Below, piece by piece: positions 115 through 18,858 of a stretch of 64,000 bases of DNA. Below the pieces are notes generated by a model, which ran no database searches, was not told the DNA's origin, and saw nothing but the letters and a program-made list of their open reading frames with translations. Position 1 is the first letter of the stretch. Each line of letters starts with the position of its first letter. The translations under genes were made by a program, and so were the position numbers. Location: NCBI GenBank assembly GCA_902705825.1, contig CACSIL010000050.1, positions 44,273-108,272 of the forward strand. The letters are read 5' to 3'. The stretch comes from Halioglobus japonicus (GTDB lineage: Bacteria > Pseudomonadota > Gammaproteobacteria > Pseudomonadales > Halieaceae).

Positions 115-423
115 CTATTCTGTATTAATGCGCTCTTTGACTCGAAACTCAATATTCATACTCTCATGCAATACCCTGACAATGAGGATGTGCGTAGGTT
201 CGACCACATAAACGATTAAATGCTTCTCATGATGATAAATGCGCACAGGGGGATTCAGCTCTTGTCGCTCTCGGCATTGCAACGGATTTTCTGCCAGATA
301 ATCGAATCGACTATTAAGGCCAGCCAGGTACTTTTTTCGCTGCGGTTTCCCCCACTCGTTTTGGGTGAAACGGCCAATATTCAAAATGTCATTTCTGGCT
401 GCAGGCGTAACTTTGAACGTCAT
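115..423 (-). CDS. parE: ParE/RelE-family toxin
   Basis: This 102-aa protein matches the compact ParE/RelE toxin fold: an N-terminal helical hairpin (residues about 5-45, with PAARNDILNIGRFT and the typical 'YLAGL..RFDYLAENP' helix) followed by a beta-sheet with 'VRIYHHEKHLIVYVV' and 'ILIVRVLHESMNIE'. Those last two strands are the family hallmark. Its ATG overlaps the stop of the upstream antitoxin by one base (TAATG), so the two are translationally coupled in the order antitoxin then toxin. ParE toxins act on DNA gyrase and RelE toxins on mRNA; sequence alone does not separate the two here, but the ParD-type partner favours ParE. It probably stabilises the mobile element in which it lies. 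Confidence 0.9.
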   Translation of the reverse strand: MTFKVTPAARNDILNIGRFTQNEWGKPQRKKYLAGLNSRFDYLAENPLQCRERQELNPPVRIYHHEKHLIVYVVEPTHILIVRVLHESMNIEFRVKERINTE

Positions 424-656
424 TACTGTTTATCTAGCTCGCTTTGGATCTCATCCATATCAAAGTTGTCCAAAACACCACTTTCAAGGCCTTGGGTTAT
501 CGCCGCTTGCAGCACCGCCAGTTTGTCACGTTGCTCTTGATCCTTGCGTATTAGGTCGCGGACATAATCGCTGCTGCTAGCATATTTGCCGAGTTCAATT
601 TGCGCTTGTACCCAATCGCGCATGGGGTCGGGTAGAGAGATATTCATTGTTGCCAT
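423..656 (-). CDS. parD: ParD-type antitoxin
   Basis: This 77-aa protein begins with a ribbon-helix-helix DNA-binding segment (MNISLPDPMRDWVQAQIELGK, residues 4-24) followed by 'YASSSDYVRDLIRKDQEQRD', the second helix typical of the CC2985-type ParD family. The acidic C-terminal tail (DNFDMDEIQSELDKQ) would wrap the toxin. It sits directly upstream of parE and overlaps its start codon. A second in-frame ATG at codon 4 (position 647) could also be used. An 8-bp palindrome upstream (677-684) is a candidate autoregulatory site. Confidence 0.92.
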   Translation of the reverse strand: MATMNISLPDPMRDWVQAQIELGKYASSSDYVRDLIRKDQEQRDKLAVLQAAITQGLESGVLDNFDMDEIQSELDKQ

Positions 657-676
657 CGTTTCAATCCTTTCAACAC

Positions 677-684
677 ATGTACAT
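677..684. promoter_or_regulatory. Candidate ParD operator palindrome
   Basis: ATGTACAT is a perfect palindrome about 20 bp upstream of the parD start. ParD antitoxins repress their own operon through short palindromes in this location. The site is short enough to occur by chance. Confidence 0.3.
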
Positions 685-749
685 CTTAACTATGGCACTT
701 GTTGCCAAATATTGTCAAATTTCAGTGCGTCACCGGCCTGGGTGGTTGG

Positions 750-2029
750 TTATTGATCAAGTGTAGGGCCTTTCCCTATGTCTCGACTGTGTTTGTGCTC
801 AAACACCGTTTTCTCCCCATCCTTGATTGTCTGGTATTGCTGAAAATCATGGGTCAGGTGCTGCGTTTGAATTTCACTGAATGTATTGAGTCGGTCAAGC
901 CGATTTTCTAACCCCTGGCGCTGGTCTAGTTGGCTAAAGATCAATTGATCCTTCTCTTTTTGATCACGCTGATGGGCCACTAGAGCCTCACGCTCGTTTC
1001 GAGCCCTGAGCTGACGATGCCGCCCTGTAACGCGATCAAGTAATCCGTGAAGGCCGCGATTGAAGCGCCCCTGCCTTTGGCGGGTTTCAGCATGCCAGCG
1101 ATCATGATGGTGCTCTCGTAGCGATTGGCGTTCTCCTCTGTGTCGTTTTGTCATCAACCGGAGTTCTTCTTGAATTTTTGACGCCCGAGATCGAACAGCG
1201 GTTTCATGCTCCTGTCGCAGAACAGTTATTCTCTTGGCCATATTTTGAGCAATCTGTGCTTTGGCGTCTTCAACCGTTGGAAGGGTGGCTTCGTCGCTGA
1301 GTATTCCCGTACTTCCTTGGCCGATATTCCGATCCACTTCTTTGAGATGGAAAATACCTCGCACCGATGATCCAGAGCGACGAAGCCACGGCGATCTCCC
1401 TTTGCGAGAATATAGCCTCGCTCTGCGAGCGCTTTCTTGAACGCGTTCTGTGTGTCGCTAATCGCCCAGCTTTCCTGCAAAGCCGCCTTGATCTCTCTGG
1501 GGTCTTTTCCGGCCCGCTTGGCATGCTGCCATTGGCTCATGGTGAAGTTCTTGGGGTCGCACTCCTGCGAGTTTAGAAATCCGCGTGGAATGTCCCATCC
1601 ATGCTTGAGGTACAGTTCTCGGGAGATTTCTTTGAGCTTAAGCTTGGTATGGGAGAGCTGGATAGCCTTCATACTGGCCATCTCAGTGCGCGACCAGACC
1701 GCATGCGCGTGGCGTCTCCCTTTTTTCTCGTGAAGAATGATGGCGCGGGGCTGATTCGTCAGTCCCAGCTTCGCTTCGACCTGATTTATGGCGTCCTCAA
1801 AATCCTGTACCGTCACATTTTCGGTTTTGGGTGGGTTCAGGCTCAGTGAGAATAGGAACTGCTTGGCTTTGGTTCCCCGGCTGACCGCGTAGGCCTCATT
1901 GAGGGCTGAAACCAGATTCTCTGAGACAAAGCCCCGTAACTCATGGAGTTCAACGTGTTCGTTGTCCTCCTTGAGCAGGTGAAGGGCTAAGTCTTTGGCT
2001 CCGCCGCGCTGGTTGCCGTGCAAGATCAT
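750..2029 (-). pseudogene. Mobilization relaxase, frameshifted
   Basis: Two overlapping minus-strand frames make up one gene. The first (2029 to about 1301) carries the nuclease domain: an N-terminal 'MILHGNQRGGAKDLALHLLK', then 'RAIILHEKKGRRHAHAVWSR', whose HxH resembles the metal-binding motif of MobA/VirD2-type relaxases. It keeps sense as far as 'ISAKEVREY'. The second frame resumes with 'LSDEATLPTVEDAKAQIAQ' near 1300 and continues through a long basic, charged coiled region to 750. Codon phase moves from 1 to 2 (mod 3), which a single-base deletion near 1301 explains; restoring one base gives a continuous KEVREY-LSDEATLP junction. The start overlaps the mobC stop (ATGA), as in intact mob operons. 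The product as written would lack its C-terminal half. Real decay and sequencing error cannot be told apart here. Confidence 0.8.
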
Positions 2030-2466: not shown

Positions 2467-2951
2467 AGCTCGGGCCCTTGAAAGTAGGGAACATGGTTCT
2501 CAAGGTAGTCATTCCATTGGGCCAGAGTGTCGAAAAGTTGGTTCGAGGTTTCATCCTCAAGGCCCACCATTTTTCTTCTGGGTGCATACTCGACGCATGG
2601 GTTGCACTTTTTACCGAAGACTATAGGTAACACTTTTGTGACGAAAGGGTTCTCCGCCGGTTCGGCCCTGTCTTCGTCAAAGTATCCTAAATCATAGTCA
2701 ATGAAGCTGACTCGCCAGATTTTGTCAACGACCTTGCTGACACTCACGTGCTGACATGTAAGGTTTCTGCAGAGATTGATTTTCCTGCCTCCGATGCAGA
2801 TACGGCCACAGTAGGTGATCTGGATCGTACGGTCATGATAAGGGCGCTCGGGCGACTCCTGATGCCAATGCTCCCTCGCTGAGGGTATGTATAGCTCCCC
2901 TCGGGTATTTCATATTAAAGCTCGCGGCTTGGTTGCCTCCTTTTTGAGCGC
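2463..2951 (-). pseudogene. IS481-type transposase remnant
   Basis: Reading upstream of the 94-aa GTG-initiated frame shows the C-terminus of a DDE integrase/transposase: 'GELYIPSAREHW', 'PYHDRTIQITYCGRICIG', 'RKINL', then 'VVDKIWRVSFIDYDLGYFD' and 'NPFVTKVLP', all familiar from the end of IS481-type transposases. Before this, 'NMKYPR' lies one base out of frame (an extra G near 2896-2900). 'ALKKEATKP' (ending about 2925) is fused close by, although intact relatives have roughly 30 residues between these motifs. So the remnant carries at least a frameshift and an internal deletion. The frame runs on past the usual transposase end to overlap mobC by ATGA; that tail (2463 to about 2615) is not recognised. 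Confidence 0.65.
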
Positions 2952-3054
2952 TAATGCGAGCGCGGTTTCAGCAACCTAGTGATCATTCGACGACCAATCC
3001 CCGGCAGGTCCGGGAATTTGGAAAGACATTGTTCCACATATGCCATTTGTCTTA

Positions 3055-3570
3055 CTACCTGCTAGCCTGATTTTCTCCCGGCACGCGTTTAACTGGTCCT
3101 CGCTCAACTGCCGGGTGGTTATCGTTTTGGGGACGTTTGCGTGCTTCAACATCGTTGAGCTCAAGCGGTTCTCCGCATTCGGAACACGCGATGTAGGCCT
3201 GATAGTCATGGCCACATGTCTTATGGTGTCGGATAATTGGTGGGCCTGCCTCATCCGAATAATATTTGTCACCCCACGTCAGGAGTGTCGAAATCACGGG
3301 GAAGAGCTCCCTCCCTTTCTGTGTGAGGCGATATTCGAACCTGGGAGGTTTTAGCTCATACTGGCTTTGCGCCAATATTCCGTGTTCTTCCAGAAGTTTC
3401 AAGCGTGACGCCAGCGTTGTCCGAGAGAGCTTTAGTCTCTGCTGAAACTCTTCGAATCGTCTTACGCCCAGAAAGCAATCGCTCAACAATGTGAGGGTCC
3501 AAGGGTCCCCTAATACAGCAGAGGAGCGTGCTACCGAGCACTGTTGGTCACTGAGTTTGTCTCGTTTCAT
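3055..3570 (-). CDS. HxlR-family transcriptional regulator
   Basis: This 171-aa protein carries the HxlR winged helix: 'CSVARSSAVLGDPWTLTLLSD' (residues 11-31), 'GVRRFEEFQQRLKLSRTTLASRLKLLEEHGIL', and the wing 'YELKPPRFEYRLTQKGRELFPVI'. Cys11 is in the position used for redox sensing in some members, but that function is not shown here. The C-terminus extends beyond the usual 110-130 aa with two CxxC-like elements (CGHD, CSECGEPLE), possibly a small zinc-binding tail. It is divergent from the molybdopterin enzyme at 3706; the shared 135-bp gap holds two palindromes, so it very likely regulates that gene. Confidence 0.88.
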   Translation of the reverse strand: MKRDKLSDQQCSVARSSAVLGDPWTLTLLSDCFLGVRRFEEFQQRLKLSRTTLASRLKLLEEHGILAQSQYELKPPRFEYRLTQKGRELFPVISTLLTWGDKYYSDEAGPPIIRHHKTCGHDYQAYIACSECGEPLELNDVEARKRPQNDNHPAVERGPVKRVPGENQASR

Positions 3571-3641
3571 CTCTTACTTCTATCAGTCCAAATTCATTAC
3601 AGTCACGCCCCTACCTACAGTGACAAGTTAACACAGCTCTC

Positions 3642-3687
3642 TTGACTTAGTCCATAATGTAAACTAAGTTGGTCCATATTATGGACT
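3642..3687 (+). promoter_or_regulatory. Divergent promoter region with two palindromes
   Basis: ACTTAGT (3645-3651) and ACTAAGT (3663-3669) form a perfect 7-bp inverted repeat with an 11-bp spacer. Just downstream, GTCCATATTATGGAC (3672-3686) is a perfect odd palindrome. In addition AGTCCATAAT (3649-3658) and ATTATGGACT (3678-3687) pair with each other. A possible -35 (TTGACT, 3642-3647) lies over the first arm with a weak -10 (TAAGTT, 3665-3670) at 17 bp. The arrangement suits repression by the divergent HxlR protein; binding is inferred. Confidence 0.55.
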
Positions 3688-3705
3688 TACATAGAGGCTT
3701 TCTAT

Positions 3706-5988
3706 ATGCCAGCTGCCAACCCGCTTGATCCACAACAAGTCGTTGATGCGAAGTACGAAGAGCGAAAGCTACGTCCTGGTGTGACCATGAAGCGTACCAT
3801 TTGTGGCTCATGTGACATCGCGTGCTCTGTGGTCAGCGAAGTGAAGAATGGCCGGGTTGTGCGTGTGCGTTCATCAGACAATCCGATCTTTCGCGATAAC
3901 ATTTGTATGAAGGGCATCATTGCTCCCAAGGGTCTTGCCAACCCCAACCGGATCATGCACCCCATGAAACGCGTGGGAGAACGCGGGTCGGGTAAATGGG
4001 AGCAGGTCAGCTGGGAAGAAGCTTTTGCTGATATCGGCACACGGCTAAAGACAATCATCGCGGAACATGGTCCTGAGGCCTGGGCCGTATCAACGAGCCA
4101 ATGGAATACCGGAACCGATCACGGCTTGGGGCGGCGGATCATGAATCATATCGGCTCGCCAAACTGGACTAGTGGGGTTGCCCTGTGCGCAGGAAATACT
4201 GCGGCAATTAACAGGTTTACCTACGGTTGGTTTCCCATCGGTGATTTCCAGAACACAAAGTGTATTGTCCTGATGGGGCACAACCCGCGTCGACATAGCT
4301 GGACACCGATGTACACATGGATCAAGCAAGCACAGGCTCGTGGTGCGAAGCTGATCGTCACCGACCCGCGTCGCAGCTCAAGCGCTGAACGCGCAGATAT
4401 CTGGCTACCGCTTAAAGTGGGTAGTGATGCTGCGATGATGTTTGGTTGGCTGAAAGTGATTATCGATGAAGAGCTTTACGACAAAGACTTCGTCAAACAG
4501 TGGACGATCGGTTTCGATGAATTGAAAAAACGCGTGGATGAGTATCCACTGGAACGCGTGGGCAAGCTGACTGGTTGCGATCCAGAAATGATTGCGAAAG
4601 CCGCCCGCATGTACGCCACTGAAGGGCCATCAATTATTCCCTGGACGCCGATCACGGATATGCAGCGCAACTCAACATCCGCAATCCGTTTACAGTCAAT
4701 TTTGAGAGCTATCTGCGGCTATGTCGACGTGCCAGGAGGCGAGCTCCTACAGGGTTTCAATCCGGACGTAGTTAACGAGTCCGCGATAGAGATGCACCAT
4801 GTTTTATCTGATGAGCAAAAAGCCAAACAGCTCGGATCAGATGAACACCCCGCGTTTACCTATCGCGGCCAGGAACGCTTCCGCGGCCCAACTAAAAAGG
4901 TATGGGGCCAAGAGTATGCGAATCTAATCATGGGTTGTCACATGACGCCGCCTTCCTCACTGTTTCGCGCTATGGCGGGTGACGGGCCGTATCCAGTCAA
5001 AGCATTCTTTTTTCTGGGCAACAATCCAATAATGAGCTACGCGAATATGAAGCTCATTATCAAAGCGATCATGAATCAGGATCTTGTCGTTGCGCATGAG
5101 CAGTTCATGACGCCGTCGGCGCAACTGGCGGATTATGTACTGCCTGCGGACAGTTGGCTGGAGCGGCCCTGGCTCATGGATTCGTTCGGATGGACTTCGA
5201 CGGTACGCACGTCAGAAAAATCAATGGAGCCGCCCGGTGAGTGCCGCTCAACATTTGAGTTCTGGAAATTGCTTGCAGGTGCGCTGGACCAACCGGAAAT
5301 CGTTCCTTGGGAAACTCTGGAAGATTTCTATGACTACCGCCTGGAGAATTTGGGTATGAGTTGGGAAGAGTTTGTTGCCGAGACAGATGTTCATTTCAAG
5401 GCGCCAGAGTTTCGCAAATACCTCAAGACAGGTTTCGCAACGCCGAGCGGAAAGGTCGAGTTAAAGTCGTCGGCGCTCGAAGAGCTGGGTTTTGATCCAC
5501 TACCTTACTTCCGCGAAGACCCGCCGACTGATCCTGAGTATCCGCTAATGCTTTTCACTGGCGTACGCGAAGACGGATTCTTCCAAACCGGGCATCGGCA
5601 TATCGAGGAGATGCGTGAACGTCATCCAGAGCCCTTGATGTTCGTGAGTCCAGGCACTGCCCGAGAGTTCAAGCTTGATGAAGATGAATGGGTTGAGGTG
5701 GAGAACGAGCTTGCCAAAATATCTATCAAAGTCGCAATTAAGGATGCCATGCCAGACGGGTTGATCAGAATTCCACACGGATGGTGGAAGCCTGAAATGG
5801 AGCAAGGTGCTGGACACTTATCTGGTGCGCTGAAATATGCCGATGCTCAACTCTGTCGAGATGACGAAGATTACCTGGATAGAGAGCAGGGCATTCCGCA
5901 CATCAAAGGTGTGCCGTGCAGGATCAACAAGGTCCCCCAGGACCGGGTAAAAGTTGTAACCGTTGCGGAAGCCGGGTATGCCGAATGA
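3706..5988 (+). CDS. Molybdopterin oxidoreductase (DMSO reductase superfamily)
   Basis: This 760-aa protein belongs to the molybdenum/tungsten bis-MGD enzymes. An N-terminal [4Fe-4S] motif is complete (Cys33, Cys36, Cys40, Cys67 followed by KG). Then comes the catalytic domain with 'SGVALCAGNTAA', where Cys161 is the likely metal ligand, and 'LMGHNPRRHSWTPM', 'LIVTDPRRS' and 'AFFFLGNNPIMSYANM' for cofactor binding. The C-terminal MGD-binding domain (about 610-745) has 'LMLFTGVREDGFFQTGHRHI' and 'IRIPHGWWKPEM'. The overall pattern recalls acetylene hydratase and thiosulfate/polysulfide-reductase-like catalytic subunits; the substrate is unknown. There is no Tat signal, no iron-sulfur subunit and no membrane anchor nearby, so it is probably a cytoplasmic, stand-alone enzyme. 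Met28 is an alternative start close to the Fe-S motif. A 76-aa ORF overlaps its stop. Confidence 0.88.
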   Translation: MPAANPLDPQQVVDAKYEERKLRPGVTMKRTICGSCDIACSVVSEVKNGRVVRVRSSDNPIFRDNICMKGIIAPKGLANPNRIMHPMKRVGERGSGKWEQVSWEEAFADIGTRLKTIIAEHGPEAWAVSTSQWNTGTDHGLGRRIMNHIGSPNWTSGVALCAGNTAAINRFTYGWFPIGDFQNTKCIVLMGHNPRRHSWTPMYTWIKQAQARGAKLIVTDPRRSSSAERADIWLPLKVGSDAAMMFGWLKVIIDEELYDKDFVKQWTIGFDELKKRVDEYPLERVGKLTGCDPEMIAKAARMYATEGPSIIPWTPITDMQRNSTSAIRLQSILRAICGYVDVPGGELLQGFNPDVVNESAIEMHHVLSDEQKAKQLGSDEHPAFTYRGQERFRGPTKKVWGQEYANLIMGCHMTPPSSLFRAMAGDGPYPVKAFFFLGNNPIMSYANMKLIIKAIMNQDLVVAHEQFMTPSAQLADYVLPADSWLERPWLMDSFGWTSTVRTSEKSMEPPGECRSTFEFWKLLAGALDQPEIVPWETLEDFYDYRLENLGMSWEEFVAETDVHFKAPEFRKYLKTGFATPSGKVELKSSALEELGFDPLPYFREDPPTDPEYPLMLFTGVREDGFFQTGHRHIEEMRERHPEPLMFVSPGTAREFKLDEDEWVEVENELAKISIKVAIKDAMPDGLIRIPHGWWKPEMEQGAGHLSGALKYADAQLCRDDEDYLDREQGIPHIKGVPCRINKVPQDRVKVVTVAEAGYAE

Positions 5989-6215
5989 GCGCGCGTGAAC
6001 GCTGGTTAAGAAAGCAAGAGAGGTCCGCCAGACTGGCAGCTTTTTTGGCTGCCAGATCATCTCGAAACAAAAGCCTATCTGACAAGATCTGCCGGTATCT
6101 GGTGAACCGGGCGACTGCCGTTAAACCCGAAGACGATTTCATGCGCGATCCGCTTATTGATAACGATATGGGGTTTGACCCCGACGAGCTCGATCGCTTT
6201 CAGCGTGGGGAGTAA
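5985..6215 (+). CDS. Small coupled protein after molybdoenzyme
   Basis: A 76-aa ORF starts at an ATG that overlaps the molybdoenzyme stop (ATGA, 5985-5988). The frame is open further upstream, but the coupled start is the most natural. The protein is strongly basic at the N-terminus (MSARERWLRKQERSARLAAF), has one cysteine (SDKICRYLV), and ends in a very acidic tail (NDMGFDPDELDRFQRGE). I do not recognise the family. Position suggests a dedicated accessory, chaperone or partner of the molybdoenzyme, but that is inference. The coding sequence contains a hairpin (CTGGCAGC, 6033-6040, with GCTGCCAG, 6048-6055). Confidence 0.6.
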   Translation: MSARERWLRKQERSARLAAFLAARSSRNKSLSDKICRYLVNRATAVKPEDDFMRDPLIDNDMGFDPDELDRFQRGE

Positions 6216-6440
6216 GTAAGGGGAAAGCCAAAATACACCATCAATGAACAACCAATTCGATAATCCGTTGAAGCGTTGGATAAAGCCTTCATGTAAGAAG
6301 ACGGGTAGTCGTAATTCAATAGGTCGCCACTGCCGGACTTTTGCCGGAATCAGTCCTGCTATGTTGTGCATTTCGGTGTGATCTGCAACGGGCATTAACG
6401 ATAAAAAGTTAGATCAAATCAATTGTTTGGAAATAGGCTG
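6216..6440. other. Non-coding stretch before the tRNA fragment
   Basis: Between the small coupled ORF and the tRNA fragment I see no supportable gene, terminator or known repeat; short frames on both strands lack any recognisable domain. It probably represents the outermost end of the integrated element. Confidence 0.5.
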
Positions 6441-6490
6441 GTCGACTTTTAACCCATTGGTCGCTGGTTCGAGTCCAGCACGGCCAACCA
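6441..6490 (+). other. 3' half of tRNA-Lys: probable att site
   Basis: From the anticodon loop CTTTTAA (6446-6452, anticodon TTT) through the variable region, a perfect T-arm (GCTGG-TTCGAGT-CCAGC, 6463-6479), a 3' acceptor strand (ACGGCCA) and CCA at 6488-6490, this is the 3' part of a tRNA-Lys gene. There is no D arm, no matching 5' acceptor strand (TGGCCGT expected) and the 5' anticodon stem does not pair. A lone tRNA 3' end is what integrases leave at the far end of a tRNA-targeting element. The orientation places the element to the left, consistent with the mob and parDE genes there. Confidence 0.75.
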
Positions 6491-6661
6491 TTTTGCAGTT
6501 ATCCCTACTTACACGGGGCGGAATGTTAGTGCAGCCATTACCCGCTCAGGAAAAGCCGGCAGAGCTGTTGGCAGCATTGGGTGAGCCTCTTCGGCGCGCA
6601 ATCAGACGATGTGTTTAGCGGGCTCCCAATCTTCTTGATATGATCATCGCGAACTTCATCT

Positions 6662-7705
6662 ATGCCGGCAATGCAAACCATGGATAGTCAGTTTTACACG
6701 CGATCAGAACCGATCCTTCTGCCGTACTATCCGCGGCTCGTCTATTTGTTGCTGCTTGAGCTCGGGTATGATGATGAACAGATATTTGGTGGATTAGATA
6801 TATGCGCTGATCGGCTGCATGACGAAAAATACCGTCTCAGTGTCGAGCAACACGAACAGTTTATCCTCCGTGTTCTGGGCATAACACAAAACCCTCATTT
6901 TGCCATCCAGATGGGAAAATGGCAGGACTCTTTTACGCCCAACCTTGCACTTATTACCGTCGCCAACAGTGGGAAGATTTCGAAGGCACTACACTTAATC
7001 ACTCGTTACAACAAAATCGTTACACGCGTGTTTTCGATTCGTTCAGTTGAAGCAGATGATTGTGTGGTCATGGAGATTGAGACACATTTGGAACACGACA
7101 GTGTTGTCTACTTTTCCATCAGTGCCTTCGTCCTGTTTCTGGATCATTTTTTTCTGGACGTACTGAAAGGTTCTCATCTCGTAAAGCGTGTGGAACTGGC
7201 TGTTTCGAAGCCAGATGGTTTTGCTGGGGTAAGTGGCGAATTCGCCTTTCCCATGACGTTTGGTCATGCTCGAACACGGGTTCATTTCGACAATACGCTT
7301 CTGGATCAGCCAATGAAACAGGCCGACCCCCAGACGGTTCGTCTCCTTATCGAAATGAGTGAGCGTCAATTACAGGAGGCAGAGGCAGAGCTGAGTTTCG
7401 TCGGAGCAGTTAAATCCCTGCTGATAGAACAGATTGCGTCCCCACCAAAACTCAATGACGCGGCAAAGCAGCTTGGTATCTCCTCGCGAGGGTTGAGAAG
7501 GAAGTTGGAGCAGTCGGGAACGAGCTATCAGAAAGTACTGGATTCTGTTCGGTTGAAGATGGCAAACAGGCTTATAGAAGAAACAGATGCACCCATAGCC
7601 TCCATCGCGTATGAGTTAGGTTTCGACAACGCCTCCGATTTTGGGCGGGCATTCAAGAAATGGAGTGGTCAATCCCCTTCCTCTGTCCGCAGTGGCTCGC
7701 AATAA
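6662..7705 (+). CDS. AraC-family transcriptional regulator
   Basis: This 347-aa protein has an 'arabinose-binding-like' N-terminal domain (residues about 25-215, with 'LSVEQHEQFILRVLGITQNP' and 'GKWQDSFTPNLALITVANSG') and a C-terminal double helix-turn-helix (about 255-345: 'DAAKQLGISSRGLRRKLEQSGTSY' then 'IASIAYELGFDNASDFGRAFKKWSG'). This architecture is typical of OruR/ArgR-like or hydrocarbon/steroid regulators. ATG codons 1, 4 and 7 are all possible starts; none has a convincing ribosome site. It lies just outside the tRNA scar and upstream of the isomerase-like and SDR genes, which are plausible targets. Confidence 0.87.
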   Translation: MPAMQTMDSQFYTRSEPILLPYYPRLVYLLLLELGYDDEQIFGGLDICADRLHDEKYRLSVEQHEQFILRVLGITQNPHFAIQMGKWQDSFTPNLALITVANSGKISKALHLITRYNKIVTRVFSIRSVEADDCVVMEIETHLEHDSVVYFSISAFVLFLDHFFLDVLKGSHLVKRVELAVSKPDGFAGVSGEFAFPMTFGHARTRVHFDNTLLDQPMKQADPQTVRLLIEMSERQLQEAEAELSFVGAVKSLLIEQIASPPKLNDAAKQLGISSRGLRRKLEQSGTSYQKVLDSVRLKMANRLIEETDAPIASIAYELGFDNASDFGRAFKKWSGQSPSSVRSGSQ

Positions 7706-7820
7706 GGCATGGCCATATTTGCATAGTATTTGGCCGTCTTTACCCTCGCTCCAGCTTGCGCCGCTTATGTAGACTACTTCTGACATTGACGAACGGGTCA
7801 TTGGATTTCGGGAGATAGCT

Positions 7821-8489
7821 ATGAGTGAAGTAGTTGATACGTATTGGTCCTTTCGAAGTCCCTATTCGTACCTGGCCATACCAGACTTGTTGCAGCTGCG
7901 GCGGGATTACGATGTCGATATTAGGCTGCGGGTCGTGCTACCCCTGGCAGTGCGAGCCAAGGAAACCGTATTTGACCCCGCCAATCTAAAGCCAGCCCAT
8001 TACATCCTCCTGGACAGCACGCGTCGCAGTGAATTTCTGGGAATACCTTTCGTCTTTCCCCCGAACCCTGACCCTGTTGTGCAGGATTTTGAGACATTTA
8101 AGGTGGCGCAGGAGCAGCCCTTTATCTTCCGGCTCTGTAAGCTGGGTGTTGAAGCAGAACGCCGGGGTAAAGGGCTTGATTTCGCAAATGCTGTTTCACG
8201 CCTGATTATGGGGGGCACTGTGGGCTGGGATCAGGGCGATCATCTCAGGCAAGCCGTCGCCTCGACGGGTCTTGATCTGGATGACCTGGAGGCCGCTACA
8301 GTCAGCGGCGAGCATCTGGAAGAGGTGGAAAGAAACCACGAGCGTCTGGATGCGGCAGGGCATTAAGGTGTCCCGACAATGGTGGTCCGTGGTGAACCTT
8401 TCTTCGGTCAGGACCGGGTAGAGACATTGCGGTGGCGTTTGGACCAGTTCGGTCTGGCCAAGCCCCAGGCCGCCAGCAAACTACTGTAG
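7821..8489 (+). pseudogene. DsbA-family/HCCA-isomerase-like protein, in-frame TAA
   Basis: The first 181 codons encode a thioredoxin-fold protein of the 2-hydroxychromene-2-carboxylate isomerase type: 'TYWSFRSPYSYLAIPDLLQL' at the N-terminus (Ser in place of the DsbA CxxC), then a helical insertion. The frame reaches 'HERLDAAGH' and stops at TAA (8364-8366). In the same frame it continues 'GVPTMVVRGEPFFGQDRVET' and 'LRWRLDQFGLAKPQAASKLL' to TAG (8487-8489). 'AGH-x-GVPT' with the cis-Pro loop and 'GEPFFGQDR' are the conserved C-terminal motifs, and relatives usually have Trp at x. So the TAA replaces a Trp-type codon and removes about 40 essential residues. Full length would be 222 aa, normal for the family. 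A good GGAGA site precedes the ATG. Confidence 0.78.
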
Positions 8490-8525
8490 CGAACAATCAA
8501 ATCTTAGTGAGAACGGAGAAATTAC

Positions 8526-9320
8526 ATGGACCTTCAAATTCGCGGTAAAAAGGCTCTCATGGCTGGCGGCAGTGCTGGTATGGGCAGGGCGACGGCTGAA
8601 CGACTGGCTGAGGCTGGGGCAGAGTTATACATCAGCGCCCGTCGTGAAGAGCGGCTGATGAACGCCGCGAGAGAGATGTCGGAAAAATACGGAGTCAAGG
8701 TCACTGCGGTCGTTGCGGACTCTTCCAAGGAAGAAGGTCGGCGAGCCTTGTTTGAAGCCTGTCCCGACCCGGACATTTTGGCGATCACTATCAAGCCGCC
8801 TGCGCCGAATGGCGATTTTCTCAAGTTGCAGCCTGAAGATTGGCGGGATTCAATCGAAACGGCTCTGATCGGTCCGATAGAAATCATGCGCCATTACATC
8901 CCGGGCATGAAAGAAAAGGGCTGGGGCCGTATCGTGAATATCGCCACATTCTCCGCCAAGAACCCGATGCTATGGCGCCTGATGTCCGGGCCTGCCCGTT
9001 CTGCGCTGATCAACTACACCGCCAGTGTGTCTCGTGAAATTGCCCAGTATGGGGTCAATATCAACAATATCCTCCCGGGTATGTTCGCGACGGAAGGTGC
9101 GGACGAACTTGTGGAGGTCTATGCAGACGCCTTTGGTCTGGAGCGGGATCGGGATGTTGCCATGAATCACTTCCTGGAAAATAACAAGATTCCCGCTGGT
9201 TTTGTCGCGGACGCTGCCGACATGGCGCCTATGGCCGCACTATTGTGCAGCCCGTTGTCGCGATTTATCGTCGGACAGAATATTGTGATTGACGGTGGGC
9301 AACACCATTCCTTGTTTTAG
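8526..9320 (+). CDS. SDR-family protein with atypical active site
   Basis: A 264-aa short-chain dehydrogenase/reductase fold. The dinucleotide motif is present (GGSAGMG, residues 14-20) with 'ISARREERL' for NADP-type recognition. The C-terminal part is typical ('GVNINNILPGMFATEGADEL', 'FIVGQNIVIDGGQHHSLF'). However, the NNAG motif is replaced by 'IKPPAPNG' (89-96), and the catalytic YxxxK region reads 'LMSGPARSALINY' (152-164), with no Tyr-Lys pair. This resembles the 'LSNxxR' subgroup of FabG-like proteins. It may bind NAD(P) without classical catalysis or use another mechanism. GGAGAA lies 5' of the start. It is co-oriented with the broken isomerase-like gene. Confidence 0.85.
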   Translation: MDLQIRGKKALMAGGSAGMGRATAERLAEAGAELYISARREERLMNAAREMSEKYGVKVTAVVADSSKEEGRRALFEACPDPDILAITIKPPAPNGDFLKLQPEDWRDSIETALIGPIEIMRHYIPGMKEKGWGRIVNIATFSAKNPMLWRLMSGPARSALINYTASVSREIAQYGVNINNILPGMFATEGADELVEVYADAFGLERDRDVAMNHFLENNKIPAGFVADAADMAPMAALLCSPLSRFIVGQNIVIDGGQHHSLF

Positions 9321-16653: not shown

Positions 16654-18858
16654 ATGGGAATACGCTCTGAGAAAACCTACTGCAGAATCTGCGAGGCCTC
16701 CTGTGGTCTCGTCGTCGATATTGAAACGGACGACAGCGGCGGGGAGACTATTCGAAAAATTACAGCCGATGCTGACCACCCGATCTCCAAAGGGTATGCC
16801 TGCATCAAGGGGACAAGTCTTGCGGGTATCCATCATGATCCAGATCGCGTCAATTTTCCGCTTAAGCGAGTAATGGGGCGCCAGGATAACGATTGCTGGG
16901 AAGAAATAAGTTGGGCGCAGGCAATTGACGAAATTGCGACAAAAGCCCGGGGATTAAAGCTGAACTATGGCGCAAACACTTTAGCTCATTATGCCGGCAA
17001 CCCCACCTACGCGAATTTTAAAAGTATTCTCTGTGTACAAGATTTCATCGCCTGCCTGGGCTCGAATCAGCATTATGCCTCACACTCAGTTGACCTGAAT
17101 AACAAGTTTCAGGTAGCTGCGGATATGTTTGGTGTTGATGTGTTGCACCCGATACCGGACTTCGACCACATGGAATTTTTTATGTGTCTGGGCGGCAACC
17201 CGGTTATTAGCCAGATGTCCGTAGTGAGTGTGATTAACCCGCTGGAAAAACTACAGGCTATCGAAGCGCGCGGCGGAAAAGTCGTGATCGTCGATCCACG
17301 AAGAACCGAAACTGCATCGAAGGTCGGAGAGCACGTGTTCATTCACCCCGGCACAGATGCATTCTTTCTGTTGGCACTCCTTTACGTACTGCACTATGAG
17401 CTCGAGTTCTCAGCGCCATCCATGGAGAAATATATCGAGGGTGCAGATGCGCTAGTGAATGCCGCCAAGGAATGGACGCCTGAACGTGTTTCCTCTATTA
17501 GCGGTATCAGTAGTGCAGTGATTCGACGTATTGCGGCGCAGTATCATGATGCGGATGGTGCAGCCCTTTATATGTCGACGGGTGTGAATATGGGGCCATT
17601 CGGTTCCATCTCGTACTGGGTGCTGCAAGGGATCAATATCCTGTCGGGCAACCTTGATAAACGAGGTGGATTGTTAGTGCCCGAGGGGGCTATCGATTGG
17701 CTGACACTGGCGCAGAAAATTGTTGTCAGCGATCCCGAGGTTACCACCTCACAGGGTTGGCATAAGGTCGCGGGGTGTTTTCCTGTCACGGCTCTGCCCG
17801 AGGACATTCTATGTGACAACGAAGACCGTATTCGCGCGCTCTTTATATCAGCAGGTAACCCCGTTCACTCTACGCCACATCCAAACTGGCAAAAAGCGAT
17901 GGAGCGGCTTGAGCTGGTGGTTAGCGTGGATATCTACATTAACGAAACGGCCGCGCGTTATGCCGACTACGTTTTGCCCGCTACCGATATGCTGGAGAGA
18001 TCTGACTTTCCGCTTTCTCACGTTCCGTTGCAGGCGGTTCCCTACGCACAATACACCAAGGCTGTAGTGCAGCCTCAATTCGATCGGCGTGAAGAGTGGT
18101 CGATTTTCTCGGATCTATTGCTGAGAATCGGTGCGCCGATGGTGTCAGACAAGCCCCTGCTTTTGCTTGCCAGAGCCAACGCGGTGTTACAGCGATTACC
18201 GGGAAAATTCAGATTCACACCCGATCACATACTGAAGTTGCTGCTGTTTTTAGGCAAGAAAGTGTCTTTCAGGCAATTGCTTGCTCATCCTGAAGGCATA
18301 AAACTCGCTGACCATCAGCCAGGCTCTTTCCTGGGGAAACGGCTCAAAAAGCCGATCAATTTCGCACTGGCACGCGTGGCTGCTGATTTACCTCGATTAC
18401 GCGACTATGAGAAGCATATCGCAGCTATCGACAGTAGCCACCAACAGAATACGCTGACACTGATCGGTCGGCGCAGTCGAAAATCACATAACAGCTGGAT
18501 GCACAACAACGCTCATATTAGACAGCCACTATCGAATAGTGCCCAGATCAATTCGAAAGATGCGGCACGCATGGGCTTGCTATCGGGTGACCGCGTTAAA
18601 ATCAGCAGTGACCATGGCGTCATCGAGTTACCGCTCTCGATCACCGCTGACATAATGCCGGGTGTGATTGCCGTACCTCACGGGTGGGGTCACCAGGTCA
18701 CCCGCAATCAGCAATCCAGGCAACTAGCGGGGCAGAATATTAACGATGTGATCCCTGGCGGCGCACAGTGTATGGAGCCGGTGAGCGGGCAGGCAATTCT
18801 GCTAGGTCACCCGGTAGCCGTCGAGAAGGTAACGCAGGGTTCTATTGCAGCAAGCTAG
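16654..18858 (+). CDS. Molybdopterin oxidoreductase (second, orphan)
   Basis: A 734-aa DMSO-reductase-superfamily protein. The [4Fe-4S] cysteines are C10, C13, C17 and C50. The catalytic domain includes 'CLGSNQHYASHSVDLNNKF' (Ser143, Ser145 and Asp147 in the metal-ligand region, no Cys), 'FFMCLGGNPVISQM', 'VVIVDPRRTETASK' and 'LFISAGNPVHSTPH'. The MGD-binding C-terminal domain (about 605-725) has 'RMGLLSGDRVKISSDHG' and 'VIAVPHGWGHQV'. It differs from the first molybdoenzyme in the window in its ligand region. Residues about 500-590 form a less conserved insertion. No Tat signal or redox partner gene is adjacent. Relatives are loosely labelled formate dehydrogenase or nitrate-reductase-like; no substrate can be assigned. 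Confidence 0.87.
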   Translation: MGIRSEKTYCRICEASCGLVVDIETDDSGGETIRKITADADHPISKGYACIKGTSLAGIHHDPDRVNFPLKRVMGRQDNDCWEEISWAQAIDEIATKARGLKLNYGANTLAHYAGNPTYANFKSILCVQDFIACLGSNQHYASHSVDLNNKFQVAADMFGVDVLHPIPDFDHMEFFMCLGGNPVISQMSVVSVINPLEKLQAIEARGGKVVIVDPRRTETASKVGEHVFIHPGTDAFFLLALLYVLHYELEFSAPSMEKYIEGADALVNAAKEWTPERVSSISGISSAVIRRIAAQYHDADGAALYMSTGVNMGPFGSISYWVLQGINILSGNLDKRGGLLVPEGAIDWLTLAQKIVVSDPEVTTSQGWHKVAGCFPVTALPEDILCDNEDRIRALFISAGNPVHSTPHPNWQKAMERLELVVSVDIYINETAARYADYVLPATDMLERSDFPLSHVPLQAVPYAQYTKAVVQPQFDRREEWSIFSDLLLRIGAPMVSDKPLLLLARANAVLQRLPGKFRFTPDHILKLLLFLGKKVSFRQLLAHPEGIKLADHQPGSFLGKRLKKPINFALARVAADLPRLRDYEKHIAAIDSSHQQNTLTLIGRRSRKSHNSWMHNNAHIRQPLSNSAQINSKDAARMGLLSGDRVKISSDHGVIELPLSITADIMPGVIAVPHGWGHQVTRNQQSRQLAGQNINDVIPGGAQCMEPVSGQAILLGHPVAVEKVTQGSIAAS

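Follow-up and report, generated by a model that had tools for sequence, protein, structure and literature searches.

The locus

The locus described here lies in a stretch of 64,000 nucleotides from Halioglobus japonicus (contig CACSIL010000050.1), which we call the window at its full length. It comprises a gene for a predicted bis(molybdopterin guanine dinucleotide) (bis-MGD) enzyme, a small gene directly behind it, and a divergent regulator gene, with two operator-like boxes in the gap (Table 1). The ATG of the small open reading frame (ORF) overlaps the TGA stop codon of the enzyme gene as ATGA (5985 versus 5988), and Rfam gave no match over positions 2700-7000. Homology places the enzyme in the acetylene hydratase (AH) subfamily, within a branch that shares an altered pocket signature and, almost throughout, the coupled small protein.

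Table 1. Features at the enzyme locus (window positions).
Feature	Position	Strand	Remarks
Relaxase PF03432, MobA/VirD2-type	1226..2029	-	Pfam domain
HxlR-family regulator, 171 aa	3055..3570	-	divergent to enzyme; PF01638 E 2.8e-22, 78.8 bits (cut-off 20.8)
Operator-like box 1, AGTCCA-N5-TGGACT, 2 mismatches	3649..3665	+	
Operator-like box 2, 1 mismatch	3671..3687	+	22 bp from box 1
AH-subfamily bis-MGD/[4Fe-4S] enzyme, 760 aa	3706..5988	+	
Putative accessory protein, 76 aa, predicted helical, translationally coupled	5985..6215	+	ATGA overlap
tRNA-Lys (TTT) 3' half, 5' half missing	6444..6490		229 bp past small ORF

Enzyme identity and active site

A reading made earlier from the sequence alone had called the enzyme a complete bis-MGD catalytic subunit with Cys161 as probable metal ligand and without a signal for twin-arginine translocation, and all of this was borne out. 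Indeed, three Pfam domains (Molybdopterin, Molydop_binding and Molybdop_Fe4S4) score past their cut-offs, Cys161 aligns with the metal ligand Cys141 of AH, and on inspection of the enzyme sequence neither a twin-arginine motif nor a hydrophobic leader is apparent. A search of the PDB returned AH (2e7z; E 1e-202, 679 bits) at the top and thiosulfate reductase as runner-up with 207 bits; the identity to Pelobacter AH is 45% over the full length. In a tree of 40 rows (outgroup L016/L017) the enzyme falls inside a branch of 30 rows (support 100/99), below called the clade, which is sister to Pelobacter AH (98/97); the enzyme from a plasmid of Rhodococcus opacus stands next outside (100/99), followed by farther relatives. 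Because the tree program flagged long branches (L034, L039, L029, AH, L045, L036 and L035), the order of AH and the R. opacus enzyme deserves less confidence than their common grouping with the clade. Tree and counts exclude L018-L021 (matches of 22-36% identity), other bis-MGD paralogues (window 16654, L049 4145 and L052 8210) and duplicate views of one place (L001, L022, L032, L033, L037, L038, L040, L041 and L043). A stand-alone polysulfide/thiosulfate reductase or formate dehydrogenase was considered and rejected: the PDB matches are far weaker, the tree contradicts it, and no NCBIfam cut-off was reached among the 25 of 27 families listed. By homology the enzyme is a member of the AH subfamily of bis-MGD enzymes within the dimethyl sulfoxide reductase (DMSOR) family. 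Genes of the AH family are known from surveys (PMC10100899, PMC7858054), and similar proteins of the subfamily are described as lacking biochemical characterization (PMC12096430).

The alignment with AH from Pelobacter (Syntrophotalea) acetylenicus (2E7Z) pairs the [4Fe-4S] cysteines Cys33/36/40/67 with AH Cys9/12/16/46 and Asp37 with Asp13. In AH numbering, Cys9/12/16/46, Asp13, Lys48, Cys141, Trp179 and Trp293 are found in all 30 clade rows and Arg606 in 29, and the window enzyme shares the whole set with 2E7Z. Asp13 together with Trp179 occurs in 30/30 clade rows, in AH and in the R. opacus enzyme, and in 0/8 farther relatives. For Ile14, Ile113, Ile142, Lys48, Trp293 and Arg606 we assume the roles ascribed to them in AH; Ile113 and Ile142 we take to be members of its hydrophobic ring, and the Ile-to-Ala variant of AH that is weighed below presumably concerns Ile142. 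This ring (Ile113, Ile142 and Trp472) is not kept in the window enzyme, in which Trp133, Ala162 and Phe494 occupy the three positions. Throughout the clade, position 142 is Ala (30/30) and position 113 is Trp (29/30), the exception being the divergent L045 with its Trp one residue further on, while position 472 varies (Phe 15, Trp 7, Tyr 5, Met 1, Leu 1, gap 1). As judged from the aligned residues, the clade has a remodelled pocket with the catalytic residues kept: one side is filled by Trp and another opened by Ala. Such a swap would either compensate or shift the substrate, and a well-populated sister branch that carries it naturally would offer a direct test of the pocket's role. The roles of Asp13, Cys141, Trp179 and Trp472 in AH are given by PMC12096430, where Asp13 is called specific to the AH subfamily and Cys141 strictly conserved in it.

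The R. opacus enzyme (WP_120661552.1, on the mobilizable plasmid pRop44186_a) belongs to the same subfamily with 41% identity and has Asp13 and Cys141, but differs in its Ile113/Leu142/Trp472 pocket, in the ferritin-like and FdxA genes that follow it and in the lack of a coupled small ORF. The R. opacus plasmid homologue L029 (NZ_CP082159.1, 636946-639306; 42% to Pelobacter AH), accompanied by ferritin-like, FdxA and MoeZ genes and transposases, is a candidate aerobic Mo acetylene hydratase. The plasmid record gives soil from Tuebingen as its source; we take the strain to be one of the acetylene degraders of Rosner et al. 1997, and a literature search by strain number found no paper. In the AH-related enzymes L034, L035, L036 and L039 Asp13 is replaced by His or Lys, so that their chemistry is probably different; behind L035, a ferredoxin-like 4Fe-4S frame was noted by eye.

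The coupled small protein

A coupled small ORF directly follows the enzyme gene in 28 of the 30 clade rows. Its start lies at -3 in 23 rows (ATG or GTG over the stop codon) and between -10 and +5 in the other five; for L004 an alternative TTG start further upstream is possible. Two types can be told apart. The larger branch of the clade (23 rows) has type A, 68-95 aa long, in 21 rows, most of them with a conserved tail of about DFMRDxxIDNDxGFDPDELDRYQ, and no small ORF in the remaining two, both from the genome G694. The other branch (7 rows) has type B, which is 55-60 aa long and lacks the acidic tail of type A. Comparison of the alignments of 15 type-A members (A1) and five type-B members (A3) by hhalign gave a weak match (P 6.9e-5, probability 63%) that covers the helical hairpin and makes kinship of the two types likely.

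The differences among ten orthologues of the small ORF, summed over pairs, fall on codon positions 1/2/3 as 1133/897/2217, with synonymous divergence (dS) saturated. A coupled ORF of 50-100 aa stands after 24 of 26 AH-type enzymes, a count in which L032 and L047 are one place, whereas among 276 other genes at the same loci that encode 150 aa or more, seven are followed by one; the motif filter had left the L003 and L015 enzymes inside this control, and L003 is one of the seven. After seven relatives outside the clade, no coupled ATG/GTG ORF of 50-100 aa was found between -4 and +5. The 76-aa protein is real. The sequence-only reading had described it as translationally coupled and unrecognized and had proposed a survey of its gene neighbourhood; the coupling and the lack of a Pfam or NCBIfam family were confirmed, and the survey found the small ORF conserved beside the enzyme homologues.

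For the 76-aa protein itself there was no Pfam or NCBIfam match at E up to 1, and for the 15-member family none below E 0.001 in Pfam, NCBIfam, PHROGs or the PDB. What the family did return were weak, scattered single-member matches to unrelated families (best E 0.0013), in Pfam only LYTB and DUF2014 with one member each (E 0.022 or worse), and one unrelated chain in a PDB profile search (E 0.59). The structure model has helices at 3-27, 31-44, 56-59 and 66-74, and Foldseek gave a single, meaningless match (E 7.9). With the small-protein profile we obtained matches in 4 of 140 genomes of the taxonomic family, of which three lie next to the enzyme and one was judged to be chance, and in 2 of 398 genomes of the phylum, both next to the enzyme; type-B members lie below the reach of this profile, so that the counts are silent on type B. 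A match in G839 (E 0.009), taken as chance, is a frame that by eye looks like a membrane protein beside a ParA-like gene.

One of the two G694 enzymes without a small ORF, L045, ends in a tail that resembles the type-A tail (12.7 bits, with 1 of 5000 shuffles as high, in a test for which this tail was picked after the resemblance had been seen), and the whole L045 enzyme is the best match (E 0.01) beyond the family members. At most, this suggests a type-A motif fused to the C-terminus of this enzyme; the other copy, L046, has neither a small ORF nor such a tail. Directly 3' of the small ORF, L002 (8556-8927, scanned) and L003 (8519-8890, by clustering) encode a DUF7009 protein, which was not seen in the window.

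Neighbouring genes and regulators

The lack of an electron-transfer partner, likewise noted from the sequence alone, held up: none of the ORFs called over the window's first 20 kb has a CxxCxxCxxxC motif, and the unusual redox partner that had been offered as a possibility found no support there. Across 27 clade loci, some of them short or cut by a contig end, with ORFs called longest-first and a Pfam scan of part of the neighbours, two of the 353 ORFs with a length of 70 aa or more contain the motif, both more than 4 kb from the enzyme. By this motif, none of the 27 loci has an adjacent Fe-S partner gene of the sort expected for multi-subunit redox complexes (Psr/Phs, Fdh); membrane subunits were not separately looked for. 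MobA-/MobB-type genes lie near the enzyme in L006 and, by clustering, in L007; they would fit cofactor supply, but are not a general feature. The source genome encodes 10 PF00384 proteins, so that bis-MGD synthesis can be assumed there. On contig 141 of G694, two AH-subfamily copies (L045 and L046) stand 10 kb apart among aldehyde dehydrogenase, AMP-binding ligase, sodium:solute symporter and flavodoxin-fold genes and, by clustering, SDR-type (short-chain dehydrogenase/reductase) and enoyl-CoA-hydratase-like genes, which makes this the best place for seeking a pathway.

The regulator upstream of the enzyme is exchangeable across the clade. HxlR genes are divergent in 10 of the 30 rows (the window, L002, L005, L008, L009, L010, L015, L024/L053, L025 and L055), TetR genes lie upstream in five (divergent in L003, L007, L014 and L047, co-directional in L050, the L027 row), MarR genes are divergent in three (L011, L046 and L048, the last by clustering), and 12 rows are without an assignment; in one of these, L026/L049, there is an HxlR-like gene at a distance of 3 kb upstream, next to another bis-MGD gene. 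The trio of regulator, enzyme and small protein that had been put forward as a unit thus survives as a duo of enzyme and small protein, with regulators that swap. One N-terminal and three C-terminal cysteines are conserved in 8/8 aligned HxlR orthologues, and would suit a sensor of redox state or electrophiles. For the AH of Pelobacter SFB93, the gene reported upstream is of the MarR type (PMC7858054).

A box AGTCCA-N5-TGGACT is found with 0 or 1 mismatch in the divergent gap of 9 of the 10 HxlR loci. For any of these nine loci at most 1 in 400 dinucleotide shuffles was as good, a figure that overstates the rarity of the box because the pattern was derived from the same loci and because loci that are related do not count as independent. 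L015, with a regulator that is only 34% alike, lacks such a box (best 5 mismatches), and among 10 other upstream regions none has it with at most one mismatch (best 3 to 6). A second, mostly weaker box follows at 21-22 bp in L002, L009, L005 and L025, and at 31 bp in L010.

Distribution and mobility

Homologues of the enzyme at E < 1e-100 are present in 10 of 140 genomes of the family, its own included, and absent from 17/17 other genomes of the genus; 5 of 369 genomes of the class and 4 of 398 of the phylum have one, and each of these counts takes in the source genome itself and some farther relatives of AH. The four nearest tree rows include G237, from another family of the class, and a metagenome-assembled genome of Hellea, which we take to be an alphaproteobacterium. 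A relaxase gene lies on one side of the unit and the 3' half of a tRNA-Lys gene on the other. An intact tRNA-Lys gene is present on another contig, and the half in the window may be the attachment-site scar of an integrated element. The unit would be a regulated, horizontally mobile two-gene operon. The earlier description as island-borne is supported by relaxase, tRNA half and absence from the rest of the genus; the ends of the element are not delimited.

Interpretation

Homology, the residues of the active site and the tree lend strong support to acetylene hydratase-like chemistry, which the sequence-only reading had raised as a possibility, with the substrate being predicted. The explanation towards which we lean, as somewhat better than an even bet, is a cytoplasmic and probably non-redox hydratase of a small unsaturated molecule, made together with a maturation or cap subunit of the kind of FdsD from an operon under a repressor. 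Beside Asp37, a reduced Mo/W bis-MGD carrying a water ligand would hydrate a small molecule with a triple bond or other unsaturation, with no net electron transfer, in a pocket lined by Trp133, Ala162, Trp199, Trp313 and Phe494. Acetylene is the default candidate; a somewhat different substrate seems about as likely, because the pocket is remodelled (Ile142 to Ala with Ile113 to Trp). The small helical protein, made right after the enzyme by coupled translation, would bind the apo-enzyme and aid bis-MGD insertion or capping, and HxlR (elsewhere TetR or MarR) would keep the operon repressed through the operator boxes as long as neither the substrate nor a reactive product is present.

The model for the small protein is FdsD, the delta subunit of NAD-dependent formate dehydrogenase. 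FdsD is a helical protein of 71 aa near the C-terminus of FdsA that promotes the insertion of bis-MGD and is believed to lock the cap domain (PMC7171172). Both are proteins of about 70 aa co-encoded with a bis-MGD subunit, FdsD being helical and the small protein predicted to be so; FdsD is used here as an analogy and is not kin by any test made. A dedicated helper is also plausible because recombinant AH reached reasonable activity only once an E. coli chaperone had been fused to its N-terminus, which allowed cofactor incorporation (PMC6013536). The small protein may be the type of helper whose lack hampers the production of active AH in E. coli and, if so, would be a new kind of molybdoenzyme accessory. 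AH, in contrast, is described as monomeric (PMC12096430).

Several points weigh against this explanation. It rests on sequence, with function, metal and substrate as predictions. The AF2 model of the enzyme is poor (pLDDT 59), the model of the small protein is only moderate (pLDDT 74, pTM 0.38), no sequence or fold match connects it with FdsD, and both G694 enzymes do without a separate small ORF. An Ile-to-Ala exchange in the pocket of AH led to marked activity loss, and the clade has Ala; AH is also very substrate-specific and O2-sensitive (PMC6013536), and many hosts look aerobic, as far as their names tell. In PMC7858054, genes for Fe-S-binding proteins are nearly adjacent to all reference or putative AH genes but one, so that the clade, without adjacent Fe-S genes, differs from those loci. 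This also qualifies the phylogeny that had been suggested as a check: the enzyme falls in its own branch sister to AH and not in a clade with known partners, yet reference AH itself is reported near Fe-S genes. Redox genes do lie within a few kb at single loci, namely a FAD_binding_6 protein in L008 (8241-9053, weak), a two-domain cytochrome c in L003, Pyr_redox and peroxiredoxin in L006 and a flavodoxin-fold protein in L045. A conserved substrate pathway around the unit was looked for and rejected, as the neighbours vary from locus to locus. As to the boxes, neither the window as a whole nor the genome shows clear enrichment: the whole window has 4 matches with at most 2 mismatches, two of them the boxes of Table 1, and 9 of 100 shuffles had as many; with 1 mismatch, the genome has the box at 3 places versus 18 for a reversed control.

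The strongest competitor, which we consider a serious though tentative alternative, is a true acetylene hydratase that lets aerobes use acetylene and in which the large Trp at 113 offsets the small Ala at 142. The tree would suit it, with the clade sister to Pelobacter AH and the R. opacus enzyme outside both, as would the report that R. opacus is an acetylenotroph, aerobic, whose acetylene hydratase depends on Mo (PMC7858054); the R. opacus plasmid gene, however, is a putative acetylene hydratase. The aldehyde dehydrogenase, AMP-binding ligase and symporter genes beside L045 would fit a route from acetylene over acetaldehyde and acetate to acetyl-CoA, but an aldehyde-dehydrogenase cluster occurs in 1 of 27 clade loci and AMP-binding-type genes (by clustering) in L012, L045, L048 and L053 only. 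The invariant Ala at 142 also speaks against acetylene, given the harm reported for the Ile-to-Ala exchange.

For the small protein, a role as enzyme regulator or as tether (an adaptor to a membrane or partner) seems rather improbable. Its basic helical head and acidic tail, the predicted helical hairpin with short C-terminal helices and the absence of the acidic motif from type-B members are compatible with such a role. On the other side, it accompanies the enzyme across differing genomic contexts and regulators, no transmembrane stretch is apparent in its sequence, and its motif may be fused to the C-terminus of one enzyme.

Still less probable is a redox enzyme, a reductive dehydroxylase or an oxygen-transfer enzyme, fed by a general ferredoxin or flavodoxin encoded elsewhere. 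The kept [4Fe-4S] cluster, the flavin, cytochrome or flavodoxin-fold genes near a few clade loci and the ferredoxin-type genes within about 3.5 kb in the farther relatives L030 and L031 would be in line with it. The catechol dehydroxylases (Dadh, Cldh and others), which have AH as their closest characterized relative, are such reductive enzymes (PMC7028382), likened here by description and not by sequence. The clade, however, groups with AH in the tree, has no adjacent Fe-S gene in any of the 27 loci and keeps Asp13 and Trp179, a pair absent from the farther relatives (position 13 is Tyr in L030 and Phe in L031). A further AH-related bis-MGD module is that of the metallopterin ergothioneine synthase of Caldithrix, which is 27% identical to AH and differs in being fused to a cysteine desulfurase (PMC9516567).

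Finally, a spurious overlap frame, for which the shortness of the small ORF and its weak, scattered matches could be cited, can be dismissed with near certainty in view of the codon-position bias, the in-frame conservation, the recurrence across the clade and the comparison with the control genes.

Beyond the hydratase explanation itself, a bolder version is possible, to which we give a little less than an even chance: an undescribed hydratase class in the AH subfamily, found in Proteobacteria, marine ones among them, that would act on a new substrate (an alkyne of larger size or some other small molecule, unsaturated or toxic) and have the first dedicated maturation or cap subunit of an AH-type enzyme, carried as a self-contained cassette that swaps regulators. 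AH has been called the only known Mo/W enzyme with a non-redox reaction, its mechanism is disputed and its biochemistry comes from one anaerobe (PMC12096430, PMC6013536); in the latter source it converts no ethylene, cyanide, nitriles, isonitriles or acetylene derivatives. In the literature as covered by titles, abstracts and passages, which is not proof of absence, we found no account of the 30-row branch or its pocket signature, no description of the small protein and no report of HxlR with acetylene hydratase. Genes that surveys call acetylene hydratase by profile may, as a caution, not act on acetylene.

Other features of the window

On the 3' side of the unit (6662-9320) lie AraC, DsbA-like and SDR genes, which we rejected as members of the unit since, by clustering, AraC-type genes occur in 5 loci and SDR-type genes in 6, at variable positions. 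A second stand-alone bis-MGD enzyme of 734 aa (16654-18858, + strand) is encoded 10.7 kb downstream; its residue in the metal-ligand column is Asp and that in the Asp13 column is Glu, so that it is not acetylene-hydratase-like. In the region 115-2029 (- strand), the relaxase domain is overlapped by a second long frame (750-1364), so that the gene may be split, and positions 115-656 hold what by eye resembles a toxin-antitoxin pair.

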